Source: an uncultured Eubacteriales bacterium (GTDB taxonomy: Bacteria; Bacillota; Clostridia; Christensenellales; CAG-138). Taken from it: a DNA stretch of 64,000 bases. The position numbers and the translations under genes were made by a program. Below, piece by piece: positions 31,009-39,873 of this stretch; within the stretch, counting starts at the first letter, position 1; each line of letters starts with the position of its first letter. Location: contig CACWYB010000003.1 in the NCBI GenBank assembly GCA_902765005.1, forward strand, positions 186,001-250,000, written 5' to 3'. The notes below the pieces were generated by a model that did not search any database, was not told where the DNA came from, and saw only the letters and a program-made list of their open reading frames with translations.

Positions 31009-31029
31009 TGGCGAGAAAGTGGGATTTGA
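31009..31029. repeat. Imperfect copy of the tRNA-Ser(GCT) 3' end at the array's left edge
   Basis: The 21 bases here match 31608-31629, which cover the CCA, discriminator, acceptor stem 3' strand and part of the T arm of tRNA-Ser(GCT), with one base missing. They mark the left edge of the repeat array, whose right edge is that tRNA. Confidence 0.8.
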
Positions 31030-31562
31030 CCCGGACTGCGGTCCGGGCCATGGGCACGGCTCTGGATCGCCACCGGCGATCCATTCACTTCCGTGCCCGT
31101 TCAAATCCCGCCTTACTTCAATACTATGCAAGTGGGATTTGACCCGGACTGCGGTCCGGGCCTTGGGCTGGGCTCTGAAGCCCCACTGGGGCTTCATTCA
31201 CTACCCAGCCCGTTCAAATCCCGTCTTACTTCAATACTATGCAAGTGGGATTTGACCCGGATTGCGGTCCCGGGCCTTGGGTTCGGCTCTCAGCATCCAC
31301 TGGATGCTGATTCACTACCGAACCCGTTCAAATCCCACCTTACTTCAATACTATGCAAGTGGGATTTGACCCGGACTGCGGTCCGGGCCATGGGCTGGGC
31401 TCTGAAGCCCCACTGGGGCTTCATTCACTACCCAGCCCGTTCAAATCCCGCCTTACTTCAATACTATGCAAGTGGGATTTGACCTTCGCTGCGGCGAAGG
31501 CCATGGGCACGGCTCTGGATCGCCACCGGCGATCCATTCACTTCCGTGCCCGTTCAAATCCC
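31018..31562. repeat. Tandem array of five ~113-bp structured units with compensatory stem changes
   Basis: Units start at 31018, 31131, 31244, 31358 and 31471; spacing is 113-114 bp and the last unit ends at 31562 without the 20-base inter-unit linker. Each unit folds the same way: an outer stem GGGATTTGA / TCAAATCCC; hairpin A with loop TGCG (stem CCCGGAC/GTCCGGG, but CCTTCGC/GCGAAGG in unit 5); and a two-part stem B with 8-bp outer and 8-bp inner helices and a 3-base loop ACC or ACT. Stem B outer is GGGCACGG, GGGCTGGG or GGGTTCGG and inner is GGATCGCC, GAAGCCCC or CAGCATCC, each with a perfect complement. The internal-loop strands CTCT and ATTCACTW stay constant. About 13 base-pair positions differ between units and all keep pairing (unit 3 hairpin A alone has a one-base bulge). 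Either strand could be the functional one. I do not recognise the family. Confidence 0.85.
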
Positions 31563-31572
31563 TTTCGGAGGC

Positions 31573-31608
31573 AAGAATAAAGGGAGGGTAATCCCTCCCT
31601 TTATTCTT
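31573..31608 (-). terminator. Terminator of the tRNA-Ser operon
   Basis: A perfect 16-bp inverted repeat (31573-31588 with 31593-31608) with loop TAAT directly follows tRNA-Ser(GCT) on the minus strand and separates it from the array. Confidence 0.85.
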
Positions 31609-31700
31609 GGCGGAGAAAGTGGGATTTGAACCCACGCTGCCCTCATCGAGCACTACTCCCTTAGCAGGGGAGCCCCTTATAGCCACTTGGGTATTTCTCC
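31608..31700 (-). tRNA. tRNA-Ser (anticodon GCT)
   Basis: The minus-strand transcript has acceptor stem GGAGAAA/TTTCTCC, discriminator G and encoded CCA, a long variable arm, and T arm GTGGG/CCCAC. Anticodon stem CTCCC/GGGAG closes loop CTGCTAA, giving GCT, which reads AGC and AGU serine codons. Confidence 0.96.
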
Positions 31701-31705
31701 ATATA

Positions 31706-31793
31706 TGGCGGAGATGGTAGGATTCGAACCCACGGGCACTTGCATGCCGACGGTTTTCAAGACCGCTTCCTTAGACCACTCGGACACATCTCC
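31706..31793 (-). tRNA. tRNA-Ser (anticodon TGA)
   Basis: Acceptor stem GGAGATG/CATCTCC with encoded GCCA, long variable arm, T loop TTCGAAT. The anticodon loop CTTGAAA gives TGA, which reads UCA and other UCN codons. It is 5 bases upstream of tRNA-Ser(GCT) and shares its promoter. Confidence 0.96.
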
Positions 31794-36163: not shown

Positions 36164-36505
36164 GTAACGAGCAAGCAGTAAGCCGAGTTCTGTCATGGGG
36201 GTTGCCCACGGACGATTATCTATCTAAGGCCCTCTGTTGCCAAAGGGCTCATGCGATTATCAGGAGCGCAGCGGGCCGCTGTTGAATGCTCCCATTCCAA
36301 TCTTGCACCGGGTGGGGTTTACATGGCCGGTCCGTCGCCGGATCCTTACCTCGCCTTTCCATCCTTACCTCCCGCGGGAGGCGGTTTGTTTCTGTTGCAC
36401 TTTCCCTGATGTCGCCATCGCCGGGTGTTACCCGGCACCCTGCCCTGCGGTGCTCGGACTTTCCTCAGCCCACGAGGGGCCGCAATCGTCTTGCTTACTC
36501 GTTAC
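36164..36505 (-). ncRNA. rnpB: RNase P RNA
   Basis: On the minus strand the RNA has the P1 helix formed by its two ends (GTAACGAG with CTCGTTAC), the conserved GAGGAAAGTCC of CR I, the AAAGTGCAACAGAAA core region, TAGATAGATAATCGTC and the 3' ACAGAACTCGGCTTAC, all diagnostic of bacterial RNase P RNA. The length of about 342 bases fits. It is the ribozyme that matures tRNA 5' ends. It starts only 19 bases after the zinc-ribbon gene, so it may be transcribed with it or from a promoter inside it. Confidence 0.97.

Positions 36506-38020: not shown

Positions 38021-39873
<1,853 letters not shown>

Follow-up and report, generated by a model that had tools for sequence, protein, structure and literature searches.

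A five-unit array downstream of tRNA-Ser(GCT)

The window, i.e., the whole analysed stretch of 64,000 nt, holds a tandem array beside two tRNA-Ser genes. Since these genes lie immediately upstream on the minus strand, the array is best read on that strand, where tRNA-Ser(GCT) is followed by a terminator-like palindrome and then by five units. The features are:

31706-31793, minus strand: tRNA-Ser gene
31608-31700, minus strand: tRNA-Ser(GCT), the gene preceding the array (ARAGORN, Rfam RF00005)
about 31609-31631, minus strand: X of tRNA-Ser(GCT), i.e., its T-loop-to-end segment (from the sequence)
31573-31608, minus strand: terminator-like palindrome T, separating tRNA-Ser(GCT) and the array
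31470-31562, minus strand: unit 5, closest to the tRNA, 93 bp; X' 31552-31562, core 31504-31551 (model R1 match G000:C3:217504-217551), hairpin A 31483-31500, X start 31470-31482
31357-31469, minus strand: unit 4, 113 bp; core 31391-31438 (model R1)
31243-31356, minus strand: unit 3, 114 bp, hairpin A longer by one base; core 31278-31325 (model R1)
31130-31242, minus strand: unit 2, 113 bp; core 31164-31211 (model R1)
31017-31129, minus strand: unit 1, most distant from the tRNA, 113 bp; core 31051-31098 (model R1), hairpin A 31030-31047
31010-31029, minus strand: displaced near-complete copy of the tRNA-Ser 3' end that closes the array (by-eye comparison with 31609-31629)

Tandem Repeats Finder places the repeat at 31017-31562 with a period of 113 and 4.8 copies. 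Together with our comparison of the units, this confirms what a sequence-only reading of the window had described, i.e., five tandem units with shared loops and replaced stems. Each unit combines an outer stem, a core hairpin of 48 nt whose inner-loop bases are conserved, and hairpin A as the second hairpin. Common to the units, the outer stem (GGGATTTGAAC...TCAAATCCC on the minus strand) is a copy of the adjacent tRNA's T-arm region. The cores fall into the three stem types already reported by that reading: one in units 1 and 5, another in units 2 and 4, and a third in unit 3. Its observations on hairpin A also hold, namely that four of seven pairs differ in unit 5, all of them compensated (pairs compared by eye), and that an irregularity, the extra base, occurs in unit 3 only. 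The closing tRNA copy is by eye one base shorter than the tRNA-Ser 3' end. Towards the tRNA, the palindrome T forms together with the flanking tRNA end and the X' remnant an inverted repeat (31562-31619) with 27-nt arms at 31562-31588 and 31593-31619 that are 85% complementary.

The repeat overlaps with ORFs, the longest of 129 aa, which are presumed to be incidental. At gathering score, the Rfam matches of the window are restricted to tRNA and RNase P, the latter an ordinary bacterial class A RNase P RNA (36164-36501, minus strand), and a permissive scan over the array gave nothing convincing; the array is thus without a recognised family, as had been stated. The location beside tRNAs extends beyond this locus, i.e., a DNA search of the window's own genome found more copies beside tRNA-Glu, tRNA-Ser(GGA), tRNA-Val, tRNA-Leu and tmRNA. 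The tandem arrangement amounts to a single local amplification of a unit that recurs at the ends of numerous tRNA operons in this genus of gut bacteria.

Conservation of the core fold

A pattern describing the core has 14 exact matches in the window's genome (G000) compared to 0 for the backward pattern, and thus counts as more than chance. We built the covariance model R1 from 13 cores (alignment A2). Within A2, which is the model's own alignment, 97.7% of the cells are paired; 50 cells are changed on both sides (12.0 in shuffles) and none on one side only. For a set of 108 distinct cores, which leans towards the model given that the cores were found with it and the alignment was fitted to it, 94.7% of the pair cells are standard (72.0% in shuffles) and 372 cells are changed on both sides (101.8 in shuffles). 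Sliding the partners by 1-3 columns leaves a pairing of 32-42% in this set. Its inner helix is paired in 99.2% of the cells and few broken chimeras are seen, i.e., broken stems are by no means as frequent among the relatives as paired ones. The refuting outcome named by the sequence-only reading is therefore not observed, and this check speaks for it. We also collected cores by the loop pattern alone, i.e., blind to the stems. Here, 974/996 inner cells are Watson-Crick, with 55 different stem arms among 166 distinct cores. The covariation of the core is strong.

As RNA control for the pair chemistry we used the terminators between tRNA and element. Their 59 hairpins contain 695 Watson-Crick, 31 G-T, 2 A-C and 7 other cells, i.e., a G-T share of 4.2% (31/735). 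The inner core stem of 201 distinct cores shows 1762 Watson-Crick, 8 G-T, 12 A-C and 8 other cells, such that G-T makes up 0.4% (8/1790). As read on the tRNA strand, the inner stem has about one tenth of the G-T share of the terminators (p 7e-11, with cells that are not independent), and its G-T cells do not outnumber A-C (8 vs. 12, p 0.5). For the outer core stem of the 201 distinct cores (1375 Watson-Crick, 28 G-T, 14 A-C, 85 other), a weak excess of G-T over A-C is observed (28 vs. 14, p 0.04), and part of the mismatches resembles by eye a tandem G-A variant.

Given the rarity of G-T in the inner stem relative to the terminators, we infer that the structure is kept either as DNA or via both strands. 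The sequence-only reading had proposed a folded RNA or single-stranded DNA. Its conserved fold stands, its RNA half is disfavoured for the tRNA strand by the terminator control, and its interpretation as a whole is partly supported. First counts (A-C 10 and 11 vs. G-T 2 and 3) hinted at folding of the antisense strand. This signal was lost in the larger model-based set given above (A-C 12 vs. G-T 8), and we thus claim no strand for the folding. A k-turn in the inner loop of the core was weighed by eye and dropped. At three loci (L377, L323, L266), the apical loop of the core hairpin holds by eye a further inserted hairpin.

Arms that copy the local tRNA

Each tRNA-linked unit has the layout tRNA - terminator T - X' - module M - X, where X is a copy of the end of its own tRNA (T-loop to CCA) and X' is the reverse complement of X. 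The arm comparison covered 62 distinct cores that have a tRNA or tmRNA at most 130 nt upstream on the same strand. Sixteen kinds are among them, i.e., fifteen amino-acid types and tmRNA. On average, X' matches the reverse complement of its own tRNA 3' end over 12.0 nt and X matches that end directly over 17.4 nt, while tRNAs of other types yield means of 6.4 (X') and 6.3 nt (X) in 3436 comparisons. The core starts 62-83 nt past the gene in 54/62 cases. Measured from the G of the T-loop GTTC, 36 of the 54 placeable X copies begin 0-4 nt downstream, and 34 of the 54 extend to the annotated gene end or past it. The boundary placement of X' is contaminated by terminator sequence and was excluded from the results.

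Among 184 distinct cores, 69 are located at most 200 nt downstream of a tRNA on its strand, 114 have no tRNA within 200 nt, and one (L133) is near a tRNA on the opposite strand. For the 132 matches listed from the genome collection, an upstream tRNA within 800 nt is present for 59 and absent for 55, with 18 starting at most 300 nt from the start of their stretch. By eye, many of the 55 tRNA-free matches are nested in other hairpin repeats.

We further surveyed 124 operon-end entries of five genomes (G000, G039, G044, G045, G047). Both arms are found for 57, X only for 18, X' only for 11 and neither for 38, such that 86/124 operon-end tRNAs show at least one arm. The respective numbers for 1115 comparisons with mismatched tRNAs are 6, 22, 77 and 1010, i.e., any arm in 105/1115. 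In 9/124 entries, 21-24 of 26 nt of X' match, such that X-T-X' is nearly one long palindrome there; a remnant thereof is kept in the window. The modules vary by eye and comprise type A (the window), type B, which has no GTGAAT core (e.g., at Pro(CGG) and Leu(TAA)), type C (at Lys and Ser(GGA)) and others. Some frames look old, e.g., that of Thr(GGT), for which both arms are present in 5/5 genomes.

Distribution

The covariance search of related genomes recovered R1 matches in 42/103 genomes of the family. These comprise all 12 analysed genomes of the genus, which contain 5-20 copies per genome, and 30 other family genomes with 1-4 copies each. In an even draw of the order, which includes the window's own genus, 21/396 genomes show matches. 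A scan of the genome collection found at least 119 stretches with matches. The labels of 80 of them name uncultured or metagenome-assembled Clostridia, Clostridiales, Oscillospiraceae, Ruminococcaceae, Oscillibacter, Christensenella and Candidatus Limivicinus, with one of the same 80 from an unspecified bacterium; 16 stretches with cores are from viral contigs. The occurrence is patchy in Clostridia, with one rich genus.

One of the viral contigs carries two cores (L172:11932-12112) whose arms resemble a tRNA 3' end, with no tRNA called on the stretch. A second five-unit array (L148:5982-6501), with five model matches spaced by 111-136 bp, is located downstream of tRNA-Ala(CGC) in another genome than that of the window.

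Insertion and turnover between species

A clear empty site is available for one locus only, tRNA-Arg(CCT). It is filled in G044 (tRNA-T-X'-M-X-flank) and empty in G047 (L297) and G046 (L292), where the flank directly follows the tRNA. The flanks of filled and empty sites are 98.75% identical over 80 bp from the gene end, and the filled site shows one complete extra T-X'-M-X with a different terminator and a precise boundary. The two empty-site tRNA copies may be island-borne, given their unusual 5' part; the orthologous tRNA-Arg(CCT) gene in G047 (L286) shows 81% identity over 80 bp. In G000, anticodon-to-CCA copies of tRNA-Arg(CCT) are found at C13:12135, 20484 and 33995 with the tRNA at 39535, and their spacing of 5-14 kb suggests tandem islands at this gene.

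Further loci differ by whole units or modules. For Pro(CGG), what follows the tRNA in G045 is found in G039 behind a displaced copy, with 98.2% identity over 113 bp. An equivalent displaced match is observed for Arg(ACG) between G044 and G047 (95.1% over 103 bp). Both cases amount to an extra tRNA-proximal unit in one species, or its loss in the other. For Ser(GGA), the flanks of G000 and G039 are 98.3% identical over 120 bp, with modules of type A and type C, respectively. Other pairs, e.g., those of Thr(GGT) and Leu(TAA), are instead in accordance with duplication within the array.

By eye, the window's tRNA locus holds five units in G000, two each in G044, G043 and G046, one in G045, G039, G047, G040, G042 and G041, and none in G038; G048 is without a matching locus. 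Chimeric units at this tRNA have a broken outer stem in G040 and G042 and a broken inner stem in G043, and one unit of G046 carries a nested insert (all by eye). The genus has two T-arm versions of tRNA-Arg(ACG) (L357, L392 vs. L348, L378, L369), and the downstream copies in G047 retain a version since lost from the gene itself.

Search for a mobilising enzyme

An integron integrase (TIGR02249) over cut-off is found in none of the 103 genomes of the family, and the weak matches, which occur in 100 of these genomes, look like ordinary recombinases. The Y1 (HUH) transposase PF01797 is present in 2/12 genus genomes and absent from the other 10, with cores in all 12. A five-seed search for tyrosine recombinases, run with no positive control, found none beside the elements among 4877 stop-to-stop ORFs of 156 core-bearing loci. 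By eye, none of three tyrosine recombinase-like ORFs of G000 could be linked to the elements.

Discussion

We put about even chances on the reading that the units are gene-free integrative cassettes at tRNA/tmRNA T-loops, which are kept as DNA hairpins and moved by a recombinase encoded elsewhere. Such a cassette would bring along X, i.e., the tRNA 3' end copied from T-loop to CCA, and a terminator T of its own, followed by X'-M-X, where the module M would comprise the core hairpin with its conserved inner loops and the second hairpin. On entry at the T-loop, the tRNA would retain an intact end and a terminator and the old end would be displaced downstream. The layout tRNA(X)-T-X'-M-X is what is expected to remain of a cassette that crosses over in the T-loop with its own end and terminator. 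Arrays like that of the window would result from further insertion and recombination between X copies. The hairpin would act as DNA (single-stranded or cruciform) and probably be the recombination site itself, and the mobilising recombinase would be encoded elsewhere. With regard to the matching of the arms to a new tRNA we can only guess: X might be copied in a self-primed manner from the folded strand, which could yield arms with a common start at the T-loop and a variable extent in the direction of CCA.

The cassette reading draws on both arms matching their own tRNA with X starts clustering at the T-loop (36/54), on arms at 86/124 operon ends, both in 57, compared to 105 and 6 of 1115 mismatched comparisons, on the near-absence of G-T in the inner stem relative to the terminators, and on the patchy occurrence (42/103 and 21/396). 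It further rests on the empty and filled states of tRNA-Arg(CCT), the extra units at Pro(CGG) and Arg(ACG), and the module exchange at Ser(GGA). Against it stand the single clear empty site, whose two best empty copies are in unusual, possibly island-borne tRNAs, and the searches for integron integrase (0/103), Y1 transposase (2/12) and, with five seeds and no positive control, tyrosine recombinase beside 156 loci, from which no recombinase was identified. The 114/184 cores without a tRNA within 200 nt, the 38/124 armless operon ends, old-looking frames such as Thr(GGT) and the few broken chimeric stems count against it as well. Part of the species differences could be due to ordinary homologous recombination.

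A bolder version, which we think has a slim chance, is a second integron-like platform. Here, T-loops of many tRNA genes and tmRNA would serve a recombinase as double-stranded targets and the folded single-stranded X'-M-X as structure-recognised cassette sites, such that many tRNA genes of the genus would be supplied time and again with new 3' ends and terminators.

A possible but rather unlikely source of the same picture are passive repeats, i.e., hairpin modules of the MITE or REP kind. They would have entered the tRNA downstream regions long ago, with local tandem duplication and template switching making X/X' and keeping the stems perfect, i.e., with no dedicated tRNA-targeting recombination. 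This would accommodate the modules that sit within other hairpin repeats at a distance from tRNAs, the perfect stems and long X-T-X' palindromes, the tandem copies of whole units, and integrase, Y1 and tyrosine recombinase searches that end without candidate. In contrast, the complete unit and precise boundary of the empty/filled pair do not fit well, since its own, different terminator goes beyond what local duplication supplies, nor does a T-loop position that is conserved across 16 kinds of tRNA/tmRNA.

We consider it improbable that the unit is a structured RNA, made by read-through of the tRNA transcript (or from the other strand) and acting on tRNA processing or folding, with X' pairing with the tRNA end or the downstream X. 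The strong covariation, the conserved inner loops, the complementarity of X' to the tRNA 3' end, the weak G-T excess of the outer stem (28 vs. 14) and the orientation of 69/70 cores at most 200 nt from a tRNA, i.e., downstream on its strand, are in accordance with it. However, the unit is located past a terminator, many copies are distant from any tRNA, and the inner stem shows tenfold less G-T than the terminators and no more than A-C.

Integration at tRNA ends usually leaves the gene restored. For this reason, and because a decoy needs neither X' nor a conserved module, we regard it as very unlikely that the units are host-beneficial decoys, i.e., spare tRNA 3' ends that draw phage or island integrases off the gene, even though X is the sequence type that integrases target (available part of PMC3146451), tRNA-Arg(CCT) appears to be an island hotspot and one viral contig (L172) carries two cores with tRNA-like arms.

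If the cassette reading is true, a gene-free mobile unit lands on many tRNA genes of one genome and supplies them with new 3' ends and terminators. With stems that vary under a kept fold almost without G-T steps, the unit would then be a natural test case for the maintenance and recognition of DNA hairpins. It would also give concrete ground to seek a structure-reading recombinase outside integrons.

Comparison with known systems

Modular hairpins, mosaics and nested insertion are known from MITEs and from modular repeats, e.g., BOX elements. The units share these features. Unlike in MITEs, their inverted ends are not constant for the family, as the arms follow the local tRNA in the tRNA-linked copies assessed. 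With integron cassettes and attC sites they share arrays at a fixed target, gain of units next to that target, inverted arms flanking a hairpin, and stems that vary while unpaired features stay; unlike integron cassettes, the unit holds no gene. Membership is rejected, since the attC boxes R'' RYYYAAC and R' GTTRRRY are found in 0/62 tRNA-linked cores and no integron integrase passes the cut-off (0/103). REP/RAYT elements are short palindromic repeats with many copies and a G-N-R-G foot (available part of PMC3733652). The units are likewise short, palindromic and numerous, with a G-N-R-G foot in some copies, but they have tRNA-matched outer arms, and 10/12 genus genomes lack a resident Y1 transposase, such that we also reject this assignment. 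Given that the defining features were tested and not found, kinship to integrons and REP is one of form only.

The direct repeat of the gene 3' end from the T-loop, as in CIME-type T-loop accretion elements, is seen here for 36/54 copies, and an empty site in a relative at one locus, tRNA-Arg(CCT), with the caveat of its unusual tRNA copies. As far as the available part of PMC3146451 describes them, the Dehalococcoides ssrA islands show T-loop insertion, 20-bp repeats and accretion; they bear genes, use one target gene (tmRNA) and have a serine recombinase. In contrast, the units studied here are gene-free, roughly 115-180 bp long, use many tRNA targets, and have their own terminator, an inverted copy X' and a conserved hairpin module. 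That is, according to these partial sources, T-loop insertion with repeats and accretion is already known, while size, lack of genes, T, X', the module and the number of targets differ. A literature search over titles and abstract openings, which covers subscription papers thinly and leaves absence unproven, returned no description of such cassettes.

Atypical copies

The core near a tRNA on the opposite strand (L133:3150-3450) lies inside a duplicated 5' part of tRNA-Leu and is the sole such case among 70. In G000, a tRNA-Cys-like 5' part (L006:341-391), uncalled by ARAGORN, runs straight into element sequence, which is a real truncation or an assembly fault. At L354 (G000:C3:273500-274700), five copies of the tRNA-Leu(TAA) 3' end, spaced by about 119 bp, are located downstream of the gene, with a module other than that of the window (type B).
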